5,629 bases of DNA from Holosporales bacterium (GTDB lineage Bacteria > Pseudomonadota > Alphaproteobacteria > RUG11792). The DNA lies in NCBI GenBank assembly GCA_031260085.1, contig JAIRKP010000031.1:1-5629 (forward strand). The letters run 5' to 3'. Under the pieces are notes generated by a model that ran no database searches, was not told the origin of the DNA, and saw only the letters and a list, made by a program, of their open reading frames with translations. Positions 1-5,629 of the stretch are shown here, piece by piece (the stretch's first letter is position 1; every line of letters begins with the position of its first letter). The translations under genes and the position numbers were made by a program.

Positions 1-646
1 TAAATGCGATTTGAGATTCTTCAATTTCTGCGCTTATCTTAATTCGGGATCGTGCAATTGTTAATCCTATATTAGAAATTTTTTCTTCAATTATATCAAG
101 CCATTTTTCAATATCTTTATTTATATTTGAAGCAAAGTAAGTTTTTAAAATTTTTAACCTTTCTTTTGTCAATTTTTCATAATTGTGAACAGAATTCATA
201 TGATTTTTTATTGTAACCGAACAAAGCATATCAATAAAATCTCTTCTATAAGATGGAGATTGAAGAAATAATCTATCAGTTTCATAAGTCAGCCATAGAA
301 TGTAATTGTATTTTAAAAATTCACTCAGATCCCTTGTTGGCTTTTCGAAAACTTTGAATACTTTTTTCCATACTGTCCCAGATTTAATATATCCCGAAGA
401 ATAAACAAAATCTTCAGATTGAATAGTAATATTCCAAAAACTATCGTTTGAAGACTTATTTATCATTTCTTCATATTTCGCAGATCTTAATCCCCTTGTT
501 TGGGAAAATAAAGATATCGCTTCTAATATGTTAGTTTTCCCAGATCCGTTTTCTCCAAATAAAATAATGGTATTATAATCTTCAGGGATTGATATATTTT
601 GATAAAAGTAATTTCTAAAATTATTTATTCTTAAATTCTTTATCAT
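1..646 (-). CDS. recF: RecF, DNA replication/repair ATPase (N-terminal part, cut by window edge)
   Basis: RecF is an SMC/Rad50-like ATPase that helps load RecA at single-strand gaps and stalled forks with RecO and RecR. The 215 codons visible start MIKNLRINNFRNY, the typical RecF opening. A Walker A motif GENGSGKT follows at residues 31-38, leading into NILEAI and the RGLR segment at 51-54. Further on are WLTYETDRLF (about 118-127) and RRDFIDMLC (134-142), both characteristic of alphaproteobacterial RecF. No stop is reached; the lid, signature and Walker B regions lie beyond the left edge. The ATG at 646 lies inside the end of pssA (26-nt overlap) with only a weak purine stretch (AAAAAGA) upstream, so translation is probably coupled to pssA. 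An SMC-family paralogue is less likely, because the match runs past the Walker A motif. Confidence 0.9.
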   Translation of the reverse strand, partial: MIKNLRINNFRNYFYQNISIPEDYNTIILFGENGSGKTNILEAISLFSQTRGLRSAKYEEMINKSSNDSFWNITIQSEDFVYSSGYIKSGTVWKKVFKVFEKPTRDLSEFLKYNYILWLTYETDRLFLQSPSYRRDFIDMLCSVTIKNHMNSVHNYEKLTKERLKILKTYFASNINKDIEKWLDIIEEKISNIGLTIARSRIKISAEIEESQIAF

Positions 647-1403
647 TAGATCTTTTTAAAATTTTTTTAGCTTTTCGAGTGCAAAAGAATATCGATACTA
701 AATACACAATTACTGTAATACTAAACACTTTCCAAGTATATGAAAAAATAAGCCCTATGAATAAAATAACTAATATAAGAAATATTGTATATTGTTCTCT
801 TTTTATATGAAACTTTTTAATAGATAAAGTCGGAAGTTTAGATATGCATAATATTCCAGTAATAACGATATTAATAGCGCAAAAATACGGGTTTTTAAAA
901 AAGTCTCCATTAAACGCATTAAACAATATAATAGGGAATAAAGCCAAAATAGCCCCGGCAGGCGCAGGAACTCCTGTGAAAAACTTCCCTGTTAATGGCG
1001 TCTTCACGTTTTCAATATCATGCGTATTGAATCGGGCAAGTCTCAAACACATGCAAACAGCGTAAAATGCAGCAATTATCCACCCCATCCTCCCAAGCTT
1101 AGACAAGCTGTATACATATATCGTAATCGCAGGGCAAACTCCAAATACTGCAAAATCAGACAAAGAGTCTAGTTCCGCGCCAAACCTGCTGCAAGAATTA
1201 AATAGCCTTGCCAAACGCCCATCAGTCGCATCTAAAAACGCAGCAACCACAACAGATATAACCGCAAATTCCCATTTCTCAGTTAAAGTAAATCTTATTT
1301 GCGTCATACCAACCAAAAGCGCCGCAAGAGTAGCTAAATTAGGAATCATATTTTTAAGAGATAAAGATTCAAATATCTTTCTCTTGTATCGATTGTGTTT
1401 CAT
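621..1403 (-). CDS. pssA: CDP-diacylglycerol--serine O-phosphatidyltransferase (phosphatidylserine synthase)
   Basis: The enzyme joins CDP-diacylglycerol and L-serine to give phosphatidylserine, the precursor of phosphatidylethanolamine, in the inner membrane. The CDP-alcohol phosphatidyltransferase signature D-x2-DG-x2-AR-x8-G-x3-D-x3-D is complete: D58, D61-G62, A65-R66, G75, D79 and D83, counted from the ATG at 1403. About seven or eight hydrophobic segments span the 260 residues, and the end is Lys-rich. The frame stays open to a TTG at 1445 (274 aa). I prefer the ATG because an extended -10 at 1449-1454 would start transcription near 1442, inside that TTG codon's neighbourhood, and no Shine-Dalgarno precedes the TTG. 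The ATG itself has only a weak GAG about 12 nt upstream. The 3' end overlaps recF by 26 nt, so the two genes are probably co-transcribed. The usual partner psd is not in the window. Confidence 0.9.
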   Translation of the reverse strand: MKHNRYKRKIFESLSLKNMIPNLATLAALLVGMTQIRFTLTEKWEFAVISVVVAAFLDATDGRLARLFNSCSRFGAELDSLSDFAVFGVCPAITIYVYSLSKLGRMGWIIAAFYAVCMCLRLARFNTHDIENVKTPLTGKFFTGVPAPAGAILALFPIILFNAFNGDFFKNPYFCAINIVITGILCISKLPTLSIKKFHIKREQYTIFLILVILFIGLIFSYTWKVFSITVIVYLVSIFFCTRKAKKILKRSNDKEFKNK

Positions 1404-1448
1404 AATTTTATATTGCTCATGAAAGAGTGAGACCAACTTATTCAAAGT

Positions 1449-2145: not shown

Positions 2146-2526
2146 CTAATTCGATATAATTGCGAATGAGCAAACGTATGGGATTTCATCGCTGACGGAT
2201 ACGCTTATATTAAACTTTTCGTTGTGAAACTTTGCTGCAACTGTTTTGAGAGCCTGTCCTGATAACTCTACAAGTGGTTTGCCGTTTTCATCATGGACGA
2301 TCTCTATATTGTGCCACCGTATACCAGAAACGGTTGAGATAGCTTTAATCACACTCTCTTTTAGAGAATACATCTTTGCTAATGTTTCGATATATAACTT
2401 TCTCTTTCTGGCAAATTTTAATTCGTTTGGAGTGTATATTCTTTCTTCAAACTGTCGGCCATATTTGAGAATTATTCTTTGTATTCGTCTTATGTCTAGT
2501 ATATCGGTTCCTATGCCTATGATCAT
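2146..2526 (-). CDS. acpS: Holo-[acyl-carrier-protein] synthase
   Basis: AcpS transfers the 4'-phosphopantetheine arm from coenzyme A to the conserved serine of apo-ACP, switching on fatty-acid and lipid A synthesis in the cytoplasm. The 126 residues match the family's usual length. The opening MIIGIGTDILDIRRI carries the Mg-binding Asp8. The second signature LAKMYSLKESVIKAIS holds Glu57 in the K-E pair. Further family blocks are RWHNIEIV with the following GKP, and the C-terminal SVSDEIPYVCSFAII. The ATG at 2526 overlaps the gltX stop as ATGA (4 nt) and has no Shine-Dalgarno of its own, so translation is probably coupled to gltX. It is the last recognised gene of the rpoZ-gltX-acpS operon. 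No clear terminator follows the TAG. Confidence 0.93.
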   Translation of the reverse strand: MIIGIGTDILDIRRIQRIILKYGRQFEERIYTPNELKFARKRKLYIETLAKMYSLKESVIKAISTVSGIRWHNIEIVHDENGKPLVELSGQALKTVAAKFHNEKFNISVSVSDEIPYVCSFAIISN

Positions 2527-3914
2527 TTTGCAAATGTCGCAATATAGCGTTGGAGTCTTTTAATCGTTTCCGTTTTGCCCAGGATCTCCATTATTTCAAA
2601 AACACTTGGAGAAACTAACTTGCCACAAAGTGCTCCGCGGATGGATTGAGCTATTTCGACGAGCTTCGTATTTTTTTCTTTAGCTAATACTTTAACTCTA
2701 TCGCATAATGTTTGCTCGTCTATTTGTTGATAATTCTCCACTATCTCGACTATCTCTTTTAATAAATCCAAATGATATGGCGATGCATATTTCTTACAAG
2801 ATTCTTCGAATTCAAGAGGTTCTGAAATATAGATTTCAGCTGCTTGGGCTAGCTCTTTTAGCGTTCGCGCTCGCTCTTTTAAGCTATTCATCCCTTTTAA
2901 TATTCGATTCTTTGAATCTTCCGATATTGATTTGCAAGAAAACTCTTTAATAAGTTCTAATAACGATTCATTGCTTCTTTCGCGGATATAATGGGCGTTA
3001 AGATTTTGCAATTTTGCTATGTCAAATCTTGCAGGAGATTTCCCAACGGAGTTTAAATCAAACCATTTTATTGCGTCACTTTTAGAGATAATTTCATCAT
3101 CTCCATGACTCCATCCTAATCGTAGCAAGTAATTTGATATAGCTTCTGGAAGATAGCCTAATTGCCTATAATCCTGAGCACTTGAGGCGCCGTGACGTTT
3201 GGATAATTTTAGGCCGTCGGGGCCATAAATTAAAGGTATGTGAGCAAATTGCGGTATATCCCAACCGAACGCTTTATATATTTGAATCTGACGGAATGTG
3301 TTGGTTAAATGATCATCCCCTCGTATGACATGAGTTATGCCCATATCATGATCGTCTGCCACGACAGATAGCATATAAGTTGGAGTTCCATCAGACCTCA
3401 GTAAAACCAAATCATCTAATTGAGAGTTTTCAATTTCGACTCTACCTTGAACGATATCATGAACAATTGTACTTCCAGGTATCTCAGATTTTAATCTTAT
3501 AGCTGCGGGTATATTGCTGCGTTTTGCTTTGAAATCCCTGCATTTTCTATCATACTTATAAGATCTTCCTTCTTTTATAGAGAGTTCTTTTTTCGAAGCT
3601 AACTCTTCAGGAGTACAATAGCAAAAATATGCCTTTCCTCGCTCAACAAGTTCTAATGCAAGTTCTTTATGTCTTTCTAGTCTAGAAGATTGTATAACCG
3701 GCTCTTCATCCCAATTTATATTTAACCACTCCAAGATTTCAAAAATAGAATTAATGTTTTCTTTAGTAGAGCGCAATTTATCCGTGTCTTCTATACGCAA
3801 CAGAAATTTACCATTATTATGTCTCGCAAAAAGCCAATTAAAAAGAGCTGTTCGCACAGACCCTATGTGCAAAACGCCAGTCGGGCTTGGCGCAAATCTA
3901 ACTTTAACAGACAC
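2523..3914 (-). CDS. gltX: Glutamyl-tRNA synthetase (class I)
   Basis: GluRS charges tRNA-Glu with glutamate; in many alphaproteobacteria it, or a second copy, also makes Glu-tRNA-Gln for the amidotransferase route. The 463 residues are full length. The class I HIGH motif appears as HIGS (16-19) after RFAPSPTG, LRIEDTD is at 39-45, and the KMSKS loop is KLSKR (236-240). The zinc-site cysteines C98, C100 and C125 are present, but residue 127, His in E. coli, is Asp here, so zinc binding is uncertain. The rest of the catalytic domain (VIRGDDHL, 197-203) and the helical anticodon-binding domain follow. The start is GTG at 3914, supported by GGAG 7 nt upstream inside the end of rpoZ. It lies 2 nt after the rpoZ stop and overlaps acpS by 4 nt. 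Which tRNA it prefers cannot be read from this window. Confidence 0.96.
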   Translation of the reverse strand: MSVKVRFAPSPTGVLHIGSVRTALFNWLFARHNNGKFLLRIEDTDKLRSTKENINSIFEILEWLNINWDEEPVIQSSRLERHKELALELVERGKAYFCYCTPEELASKKELSIKEGRSYKYDRKCRDFKAKRSNIPAAIRLKSEIPGSTIVHDIVQGRVEIENSQLDDLVLLRSDGTPTYMLSVVADDHDMGITHVIRGDDHLTNTFRQIQIYKAFGWDIPQFAHIPLIYGPDGLKLSKRHGASSAQDYRQLGYLPEAISNYLLRLGWSHGDDEIISKSDAIKWFDLNSVGKSPARFDIAKLQNLNAHYIRERSNESLLELIKEFSCKSISEDSKNRILKGMNSLKERARTLKELAQAAEIYISEPLEFEESCKKYASPYHLDLLKEIVEIVENYQQIDEQTLCDRVKVLAKEKNTKLVEIAQSIRGALCGKLVSPSVFEIMEILGKTETIKRLQRYIATFAK

Positions 3915-3916
3915 AA

Positions 3917-4264
3917 TTATTCTCCATAATCGGAGGTGTCTTCTTCATTCGAATAGCTATCAAAATCAGCATCTTCATCTTCAGCAATCGAGCTATCCTC
4001 TTCGAAATCTTCCCTGGAAATGTTATCCATTGGATTTTCGATATCCTCAATGAAGCTTGATTTAGCAAGTTTTCTAAGTCCATCTAATGATATAGTCTCT
4101 TCGGCGATTTCTCTTAATGCTATAATAGTTGGCTTATCATTCTCCCGCATTACAGTTGGCTTGGCACCCCTTTCTAAATCTTTGGCACGTCTTGCCGCCA
4201 TCAACACTAATTCGAATCTGTTCTCCACTTTATAAATACAATCTTCAACTGTCACTCTAGCCAT
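3917..4264 (-). CDS. rpoZ: RNA polymerase omega subunit, with long acidic tail
   Basis: Omega binds the beta-prime subunit, helps RNA polymerase assemble and forms part of a ppGpp site in proteobacteria. The N-terminal 60 residues are diagnostic: [20 protein letters not shown], an arginine-rich helix ([14 protein letters not shown]), then [18 protein letters not shown]. The protein is 115 aa against 91 in E. coli. The extra length is an acidic tail, with 20 Asp or Glu among residues 69-115, probably disordered. The ATG at 4264 has AAAGG about 7 nt upstream. It is the first gene of a minus-strand operon with gltX and acpS; its last codons contain the gltX ribosome binding site. Elsewhere in alphaproteobacteria rpoZ is often near a rel/spoT gene, which is not seen here. 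Confidence 0.95.
3922..3925 (-). promoter_or_regulatory. Ribosome binding site of gltX inside rpoZ
   Basis: GGAG on the minus strand, 7 nt before the GTG at 3914. It lies in the last codons of rpoZ and decides the gltX start; no ATG is available at this distance. Ribosomes ending rpoZ stop 2 nt before the GTG, so reinitiation is also possible. Confidence 0.7.
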
Positions 4265-4536: not shown

Positions 4537-4899
4537 ATGAATACCTTAACTGAAAATATGTGTACTGCAACGCGGCAAACGGCCGACAAAGCAAATGCTT
4601 TAGCAGCCGGGGCGAAAGAGAAACTCAAGAGCGATGACATGGATCCAAAAAAAATAGCTGATATCATTAATAGCTTTCAGATTCGGTTACAAAAAGCGCG
4701 AAATGATATTAGAAACAACACAAACGAAGAGTACACTAGACTCTTAGAAGCACTCGATAGGCTAAATAAAATGGAGAAGCTATGCGACAGTGCAAGCTTA
4801 GGATATAAAGTCAGAATAGCCGGCGATGCCGATGAAATTGCGGGTACTTTGGAGACAAGAAAATTTCAATGCTCCACGTGGAACATTTTGGTGTTTTAA
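4537..4899 (+). CDS. Unrecognised helical protein, probably N-terminally truncated remnant
   Basis: I do not recognise this 120-residue ORF. It reads like coding sequence: charged, helix-rich, few prolines, with a helix-rich N-terminal half (MNTLTENMCTATRQTADKAN), a DPKK turn near residue 36, then a second helical stretch (IADIINSFQIRLQKARND) continuing to about residue 83. No signal peptide or catalytic motif is visible. The ATG at 4537 has no Shine-Dalgarno. The frame stays open and protein-like upstream to 4456 (including SELLDLETLSHQIKNILEQA) until a TGA at 4453, with no start codon, which suggests the 5' end is lost or broken. The last codons (CSTWNILVF) overlap the parS-like site and look unlike the rest, so the 3' end may also be altered. 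It is divergent from rpoZ. A live gene with a weak start is possible. Confidence 0.4.
   Translation: MNTLTENMCTATRQTADKANALAAGAKEKLKSDDMDPKKIADIINSFQIRLQKARNDIRNNTNEEYTRLLEALDRLNKMEKLCDSASLGYKVRIAGDADEIAGTLETRKFQCSTWNILVF
4870..4885 (+). promoter_or_regulatory. parS: parS-like ParB-binding site
   Basis: TGCTCCACGTGGAACA differs from the widely conserved parS form TGTTCCACGTGGAACA (general consensus TGTTNCACGTGNAACA) at one base, the third. The 14 inner and right-hand positions including the CACGTG core are intact. parS loads ParB, a CTP-dependent clamp, for chromosome segregation with ParA, and chromosomal sites cluster near the origin. It lies at the 3' end of the ORF at 4537-4899 and 22 bp before repeat copy 2. 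It is the only such site in the window. Confidence 0.7.
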
Positions 4900-4907
4900 A
4901 GATACTT

Positions 4908-5034
4908 CACGGGGCGCGAGTATGGTATAATTATTATACCATACTCGCGCCAATAGTCTGTCAAGGATCACTTCGTTCTCCTCCTTGACAGACGTACGTT
5001 AATTTAATACTCCATGTATGTTGCCCAAGGCCTG
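4908..5034 (+). repeat. Two-hairpin dispersed repeat, copy 2
   Basis: This is the second copy of the element at 1527-1658, in the same orientation. Hairpin 1 is here a perfect 39-bp palindrome: 19-bp arms 4913-4931 and 4933-4951 around a single base. Hairpin 2 has 12-bp arms GTCTGTCAAGGA at 4956-4967 and 4982-4993 around the same 14-nt loop as copy 1. The 39-nt block 4955-4993 and the 28-nt tail 4998-5025 are identical to copy 1; the spacer between them is 4 nt rather than 9. It follows the ORF ending at 4899 by 8 nt, so a plus-strand transcript would run into strong hairpins, though no U-run is present for intrinsic termination. Confidence 0.9.
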
Positions 5035-5236: not shown

Positions 5237-5629
5237 TTAACAAGCATAATATTTTAACCAACGGGTATCTGTATCGAAAAGATTTCTGATATCTTGTATT
5301 CCGTTTTTCAACATTACCAATCTATCAAGGCCAACTCCAAAAGCAAAGCCGTATGCAGGCTGCTCGATTTTGCAAGCTTTAAAAACGTTGGGGTGAACCA
5401 TCCCAGCTCCAACAAGCTCTATCCATTTATTGCCATGTTCAGAAATAGTTAATTTTCCATCTTTAATGATGCATTTGCAATCGACTTCCATACCAGGTTC
5501 TGTAAATGGGAAGAAACTTGGTCTAAGCCTAATGACAACATTCTCAACCTCAAAGAAAAAGGCCATCAGCTTCTTTAACTCACTGCTTAAGTGCCCAATA
5601 TTAATTGGTTTTTGATCAACGACAAGTCC
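5237..5629 (-). CDS. pheS: Phenylalanyl-tRNA synthetase alpha subunit, C-terminal part (cut by window edge)
   Basis: PheS is the catalytic alpha chain of the alpha2-beta2 enzyme that charges tRNA-Phe; the core is a class II synthetase fold. The 130 codons visible continue past the ATG at 5566 to the right edge, opening with GLVVDQKPINIGHLSSELKK, a family-typical stretch, so that ATG is internal. Class II motif 2 is seen in RLRPSFFPFTEP with EVDC, followed by the GAGMVHPNV block and motif 3 in FAFGVGLDRLVMLKNGI. The family's usual TEPS reads TEPG here. The protein ends normally in RWLKYYAC and TAA. pheT, usually directly downstream, is not in the 5.2 kb that follow on this strand, so the two subunits are encoded apart unless pheT lies elsewhere upstream. 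Confidence 0.95.
   Translation of the reverse strand, partial: GLVVDQKPINIGHLSSELKKLMAFFFEVENVVIRLRPSFFPFTEPGMEVDCKCIIKDGKLTISEHGNKWIELVGAGMVHPNVFKACKIEQPAYGFAFGVGLDRLVMLKNGIQDIRNLFDTDTRWLKYYAC

Follow-up and report, generated by a model that had tools for sequence, protein, structure and literature searches.

In a family of reduced-genome, host-associated Alphaproteobacteria, several members carry full 16-bp parS sites on many of their contigs, and the presence of these sites goes in step with the ParB residues that read parS, which is an unusual pattern. Bacteria commonly have a few parS sites, kept near the origin of replication. This confinement is close to a rule, which a lineage with genomes of 23-156 exact sites seems to violate. 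The window, by which we mean the whole stretch of 5,629 nucleotides analysed here, is contig C11 of a draft Holosporales genome (G000; 613,461 bp in 118 contigs, 64% complete), and the other G labels denote its family relatives (35 family genomes in all). On sequence grounds, the copy at 4870-4885 is a real parS-type site but a poor landmark for the origin.

The parS-type site of the window

The preliminary description had pointed to a 16-bp sequence that matches parS at 15 positions with the CACGTG core intact, and the sequence bears this out. Read on the + strand, TGCTCCACGTGGAACA agrees with TGTTCCACGTGGAACA at 15 of 16 positions, the sole difference being C for T at 4872, and it is the single match to TGTTNCACGTGNAACA within the window when up to three mismatches are allowed. 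The same description held that a match this close is very unlikely by chance. Dinucleotide shuffles of the window support this view, as they gave a mean of 0.16 matches at up to three mismatches (with one or more in 30 of 200 shuffles), and a one-mismatch match is rarer than that rate. The palindrome TGTTNCACGTGNAACA also has 23 exact copies elsewhere in G000. Moreover, the variant found in the window occurs five times in the relative G012, three of them on the parB contig of that genome, so a single mismatch need not mean a dead site.

Table 1. Features of the window and their positions
Feature	Position	Strand	Remark
recF	2-646	-	partial
pssA	621-1445	-	
acpS	2146-2526	-	
gltX	2523-3914	-	
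rpoZ	3917-4264	-	
Orphan ORF, 120 aa	4537-4899	+	no homologue detected; last ~15 codons and stop inside the repeat
Left arm of dispersed repeat GACAAGAAAATTTCAA	4854-4869	+	4 mismatches to consensus GGTAATAATATTTCAA
parS-type palindrome TGCTCCACGTGGAACA	4870-4885	.	one mismatch to TGTTNCACGTGNAACA
Right arm of dispersed repeat TTTTGGTGTTTTAAAGATA	4886-4904	+	3 mismatches to consensus TTTTAGTGTTTTGAACATA
pheS, C-terminal part	5237-5629	-	

The orphan ORF has the site at its 3′ end; a protein search with this ORF returned only the ORF itself, and it may not be a gene. No match was found in an Rfam search. The nearest named relatives of the GltX protein, at 65-70% identity, come from Alphaproteobacteria MAGs (rumen, roe-deer rectum) and from one Holosporales MAG. 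The window also holds a second dispersed repeat, hairpin-rich and 86-134 bp long, at 1527-1660 and 4908-5034, with a 39-bp palindrome starting GGCGCGAGTATGGTAT. This second repeat has matches in 23 of 37 compared G000 stretches, and in several of them it lies less than 100 bp from a parS repeat.

Distribution of parS-type sites and the par locus

The absence of a parB gene would have spoken against the preliminary description, and G000 has one. A single ParB_N match was found, at position 2476 of contig C85, in a protein that also matches ParB/Spo0J proteins of solved structure. The gene order on C85 is an acetyltransferase-like ORF, rsmG, parA and parB (the first three named by inspection), and parS-type sites lie alongside at 225, 442, 639, 879 and 1000, that is five within about 0.8 kb, four of them exact, on a contig of only 3.5 kb. 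With rsmG-parA-parB in this order and a ParB that carries Q162, R173, N178 and G201 (Caulobacter numbering, used throughout), C85 holds a cognate parA-parB pair. At least one exact parS was present in the examined stretch at 16 of 22 relatives' par loci, which makes this the usual arrangement in the family.

Altogether, G000 carries 23 exact and seven one-mismatch parS sites on 24 of its 118 contigs. A genome-wide scan at one mismatch had been suggested to see whether the hits cluster with parAB; the cluster of five beside parAB fits that idea, but the remaining 25 of the 30 sites lie on 23 other contigs. The numbers are larger still in two relatives, with 156 exact sites in G010 (a genome of about 0.9 Mb) and 61 in G002, followed after G000 by G029 with 11, G012 with 10 and G006 with eight; when one mismatch is allowed, the counts become 184 in G010, 69 in G002, 30 in G000, 12 in G029, 18 in G012 and nine in G006. 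G001, which belongs to the same genus as G000 and is 92% complete, has seven exact sites, two of them beside rsmG-parA-parB, and 13 of the 35 family genomes have no exact site. Outside the family, the largest count was nine in 109 genomes of the class and eight in 396 other genomes of the phylum, two samples that overlap.

Such numbers are far from what chance would give. Base composition predicts about 0.004 exact parS per Mb, and the reversed pattern, used as a control, had no exact match in any of the 35 family genomes and no match at one mismatch in 34 of them (G024 had one). Chance matching is ruled out by the site counts, the shuffles and these controls. The assemblies are drafts, which leaves some room for an artefact of assembly, but the scatter recurs in three genomes with different flanking sequences, and we give an explanation by chance or artefact next to no weight.

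The sites also reach over a large part of the genome. Among the 50 of 156 G010 sites listed, 20 of contigs C1-C28 (of about 80 contigs) carry sites, and among the 50 of 61 exact G002 sites listed, 31 of contigs C1-C71 (of about 90) do. The site-bearing contigs sum to at least 256 kb in G010 (15 contigs, 28% of the genome) and to at least 375 kb in G002 (20 contigs, 37%), so that in both genomes the sites exceed an origin domain taken as 20% of the genome (PMC7022226). The corresponding sum in G000 is 151 kb (24 contigs). The mean spacing of exact sites is about 6 kb in G010, 16 kb in G002 and 27 kb in G000 (20 kb when one-mismatch sites are included), figures which are averages over fragmented drafts and do not imply an even distribution round the circle. 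One-mismatch sites are fewer than exact ones, at 28 to 156 in G010, 8 to 61 in G002, 7 to 23 in G000 and 8 to 10 in G012. The centre variant CC..GG is found in 22 of the 23 exact G000 sites and in 42 among the 50 G010 sites listed, and TC..GA in all 50 among the G002 sites listed; in these three genomes the scattered sites mostly share the centre variant of the sites at parAB.

If the site were real, the preliminary description reasoned, it would place the window near the origin, and this part of the description was not supported. According to that explanation, the window would lie in the origin domain and its site would be an ordinary member of the usual cluster. A parAB locus with a parS cluster does exist in G000, and four of the 22 par loci have genes of the kind found in the window no more than about 5 kb from parA or parB: recF-pssA is about 4 kb from parB in G005, acpS-pssA-recF adjoin parA in G010, and in G022 and G027 the distance from pheS to parB is about 5 kb. 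The 151 kb of site-bearing contigs in G000 could, moreover, fit one wide origin domain. Against this stand the 25 sites off the parAB contig, the repeat arms of the window site, which the parAB sites do not have, and the shares of at least 28% and at least 37% of the genome in G010 and G002; furthermore, gltX was found with parA or parB in none of 20 gltX stretches. We therefore regard an ordinary origin-proximal site as unlikely.

ParB residues and gene context

Caulobacter ParB contacts parS through Q162, G170, K171, S172, R173, N178, G201 and R204, of which R173 and G201 are reported to be shared by every extant ParB orthologue (PMC7383237). We found that Q162, R173, N178 and G201 are kept in the ParB of all 25 family genomes that have a ParB outside genus g8, a set from which the second ParB-like protein of G006 was excluded. 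Each of these 25 genomes carries one or more sites when one mismatch is allowed, versus two of the 10 others (Fisher p 1.9e-6, a value that ignores phylogeny and treats same-genus genomes, which are not independent, as separate). The contact positions 170 and 204 vary among the genomes with many sites, being T/K in G000, C/K in G010 and C/R in G002, where Caulobacter has G/R. The CTP motif GERRWR and the ParA-facing motif LGRGLSAL are both kept in the ParB of G000, G010 and G002, so these proteins look like partners of ParA and not like Noc. In G006, contig C1 (L187) encodes the second protein, a diverged ParB-like paralogue without the parS-contact residues.

The 10 other genomes fall into three sets. 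The ParB of genus g8 (G008 and G023) has I or M at 162, E or D at 201 and I at 204, with GERRWR kept, and no parS was found in either genome at up to one mismatch; this ParB may read another sequence. A palindrome near parB that is common to G008 and G023 (with one mismatch in G023), ACTTATCATGATAAGT, was considered as a re-specified centromere of g8 and was dropped, since it sits in a 600-bp stretch that is conserved throughout and is probably coding. Elsewhere in the 22 compared stretches it recurred once at two mismatches (in G023) and seven times at three. Genus g7 (G007, G021 and G026; 93-97% complete) gave neither a ParB_N match nor a site. The last set comprises five genomes in which no ParB was matched (completeness 59-86%), among which G015 has six sites and G017 has one; these two site-bearing genomes without a parS-reading ParB are drafts, at 63% and 78%. 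In the GltX tree, genus g8 forms a group with a g7 genome (support 99/96).

We also considered that the palindrome followed by T's might be a transcription terminator. The window copy does score as terminator-like on the - strand, with eight pairs and a loop of 4, and three terminator-like sites were found in the scanned kilobase versus 0.7 in shuffles. A terminator would be expected just downstream of genes and not between divergent ones. Gene context was read at 47 of the 156 exact sites in G010 and at 40 of the 61 in G002, with ORFs called by length (at least 80 aa) and without a gene finder, and 31 sites near the end of a stretch or contig were left unclassed (11 in G000, 16 in G010 and four in G002). 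Intergenic positions account for 28 of 31 resolvable sites in G010, 34 of 36 in G002 and seven of 13 in G000; the other six in G000 lie inside ORFs of at least 80 aa, three of them on the parAB contig, and some of these ORFs are perhaps spurious. At the intergenic sites of G010 and G002, respectively, the flanking ORFs are divergent in 8 and 8 cases, co-directional in 14 and 13, and convergent in 6 and 13. Thus 16 of 62 sites lie between divergent ORFs (8 of 28 and 8 of 34), and 48 of the 62 are at least 100 bp from the nearest ORF. The occurrence of every gene orientation rules out termination as a general explanation. Together with the identity of the 16-mer to the ParB consensus and with its presence tracking the ParB residues, this makes a terminator very improbable as the meaning of the site.

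Dispersed repeats and possible ParB loading

Next to the core, the sites share flanking sequence. The left arm GGTAATAATATTTCAA, allowing four mismatches, was found at 19 of the 25 G000 sites away from parAB, at none of the five at parAB and at 0.3% of about 5000 positions picked at random. For the right arm TTTTAGTGTTTTGAACATA, with six mismatches allowed, the figures were eight of the 25, none of the five and 0.2% of random positions. This enrichment is partly built in, as the arm consensus was derived from the same sites. A comparison of flanks with the core masked is free of that effect, and it revealed that the sequence next to the core matches that at another site in the same genome for 17 of 20 sites in G000, 38 of 44 in G010 and 19 of 40 in G002, versus 0 of 20, 0 of 44 and 0 of 40 control positions. 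Shared flanks at many unrelated loci are what defines a dispersed repeat, and the arms differ between the three genomes. The window copy has both arms, giving a repeat of about 50 bp (about 4854-4904), and a copy on contig C60 of G000 is nearly symmetrical, with the left arm on either side. At up to two mismatches the left arm occurs at 23 places in G000, and the adjacent core is a full parS in 14 of them, has one mismatch in two, two mismatches in one and three or more in six. In G002, no flank match to another site was detected for 21 of the 40 examined sites, and pooling the 40 gave a conserved unit that extends little beyond AAAATGTTTCACGTGAAACATTTT, with four bases on each side at 89-100%. 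These results suggest that repeats carried many of the sites, though in G002 not obviously all.

Two further observations concern repeats. On contig C38 of G000 (L018:1001-1253), two parS-type sites, one of them with one mismatch, lie in an open frame (747-2252) in similar surroundings, so parS can also be present in protein-coding repeats. In G010, a large repeat family (L190, L191 and L199) has many copies with another sequence in place of the parS core.

We then compared core and arms in copies that were defined by their arms and have a recognisable core. Conservation of the core and of the arms was 0.963 and 0.879 in G010 (n=46), 0.986 and 0.886 in G002 (n=21), and 0.929 and 0.905 in G000 (n=25), where the G010 and G002 stretches had been chosen for intact sites and are therefore biased toward intact cores. 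Copies without a recognisable core (six or more mismatches) made up 51 of 97 in G010, five of 26 in G002 and five of 30 in G000, which indicates that the G010 repeat is not solely a carrier of parS. In a tree of GltX sequences from 21 family genomes, with three outgroups, G000 groups with G001 and G002 groups with G016 (four sites), while G010 is unplaced and the deeper forks are poorly supported. The simplest reading would be separate expansions in G000, G002 and G010.

The main rival to a role in ParB loading is the spread of a neutral or selfish element: a short palindromic repeat would have gained a parS core and spread, perhaps bound by ParB, without benefit to the cell and tolerated in reduced genomes. 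The adjoining flank matches, absent at control positions, agree with such a history, as do the similar conservation of core and arms in G000, the coreless copies in G010 and the abundance of other repeats in G000. Since the core-arm comparison is biased and coreless copies were seen, we rate this rival as serious. It accounts less well for the position of the three expanded genomes at different places in the GltX tree (with its poorly supported deeper forks) and for their different flanks, or for the G002 sites, 21 of 40 of which share no flank and which nevertheless stand at 61 exact to eight with one mismatch. Eight of the 10 family genomes without a parS-reading ParB, moreover, carry no site, the two exceptions being the drafts mentioned above. 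On balance we consider neutral spread a possible explanation, though not a probable one.

We favour, by a slight degree of confidence, the prediction that the window site is bound by the ParB of its own genome and that this ParB would load at many chromosomal places, not only beside parAB. It is established biochemistry that CTP-dependent loading at parS is followed by closure of ParB into a clamp, which then slides away. By the same steps, ParB would bind the scattered copies with CTP, close into a clamp and slide off each of them; repeats would have been the vehicle by which the sites spread, and selection for ParB loading would maintain at least part of them. Expressed in E. coli, Caulobacter ParB spread no further than 2 kb about a lone parS (PMC5815017), and B. 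subtilis ParB spread about 15 kb (PMC9242446). If ParB spread 2 kb to either side, it would cover about two thirds of the G010 chromosome and about one fifth of that of G000; at 15 kb it would cover nearly the whole chromosome. Either ParA would then pull a partition complex that is diffuse and holocentric-like, or ParB would organise the nucleoid in a way comparable to Noc, and we think that one of these is the likeliest use of the sites. Some features limit this reading, as contact position 170 differs from Caulobacter in G000, G010 and G002 and position 204 in G000 and G010, the window copy is mismatched, the G000 core is barely better kept than its arms, six of the 13 resolvable G000 sites fall inside ORFs, and more than half of the arm-defined G010 copies lack a core.

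Extra or separated parS sites can be costly in Caulobacter and in B. subtilis. In Caulobacter, an extra parS at mid-arm lowers fitness, whereas insertions near ori or ter are tolerated, and a plasmid-borne parS can be lethal (PMC5815017); in B. subtilis with SMC, separated parS sites carry a collision cost (PMC8357415). Both the harm at mid-arm in Caulobacter and the SMC collision cost in B. subtilis argue against a harmless scatter, and the Caulobacter result also counts against the chromosome-wide loading that we favour. Loss of SMC was considered as a reason why scatter is tolerated, and the idea was dropped because the search was uninformative: the SMC hinge (PF06470) was matched in none of the 35 family genomes, and the control, Caulobacter, which has SMC, was also unmatched.

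A bolder scenario can be put forward only tentatively. In this family, a point centromere would have given way on three or more occasions to one that is diffuse and holocentric-like, with repeats and short palindromes seeding full parS sites every 6-27 kb, ParB loading chromosome-wide and ParA partitioning the whole nucleoid; in a sister clade, the contact residues of ParB would have changed and every parS would have disappeared, as would, in part of the clade, ParB itself. Whatever the use of the sites, the relatives of the expanded genomes have 0-11 exact sites, part of them beside parAB, and grade down to genera without a site and with a changed or missing ParB. They form a natural series for asking why centromeres stay at the origin, what effect chromosome-wide ParB has and how a centromere is lost.

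Comparison with known systems

ParABS itself is well known; the layout seen here, with full parS sites far beyond the par locus, appears to be new as far as the literature searched shows, since none of the open-licence papers listed (titles and the starts of abstracts) described full parS sites scattered genome-wide. In the known systems, the vast majority of parS sites lie within the origin domain (PMC7022226). Compared with the chromosomal ParABS of B. subtilis, Caulobacter and most bacteria, the family has the same 16-bp palindrome, the rsmG-parA-parB order with a local parS cluster and the key ParB residues; unlike them, G000 has 25 of its 30 sites off the parAB contig, and its relatives reach 156 sites on contigs that exceed an origin domain. 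Many parS per genome are also known from Streptomyces coelicolor and Listeria innocua (22 in one genome), but those 22 lie near the origin (PMC5815017). In G000 and its relatives the sites occur on many contigs, for the most part within repeats, and number up to 156 in about 0.9 Mb. In Pseudomonas aeruginosa, ParB is bound on half-parS sites at hundreds of places in the genome, with a proposed role in chromosome topology (PMC7022226, PMC10419367). Those half sites are common 7-bp sequences, whereas the sites described here are full 16-bp palindromes far above chance.

NBS sites are spread over the B. subtilis chromosome, and the parS-type sites are likewise dispersed, over 24 contigs in G000 and many in G010 and G002. 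Noc, the ParB paralogue of B. subtilis that reads NBS, is likewise a clamp that depends on CTP and is loaded at sites of 16 bp (PMC8429893). The ParB of G000 is of another kind: at the positions of the Noc residues Q173, K179, K184 and R201 (QKKR) it has R, A, C and G, it keeps LGRGLSAL, and the sites in its genome are parS and not the NBS motif. Lastly, the RPEs of Rickettsia and the REP and BIME elements of enterobacteria are short dispersed repeats that sometimes lie within ORFs or at their ends. The G000 repeat resembles them in being short, dispersed and sometimes in ORFs or at ORF ends, and differs from them in that its centre is a centromere-type site.
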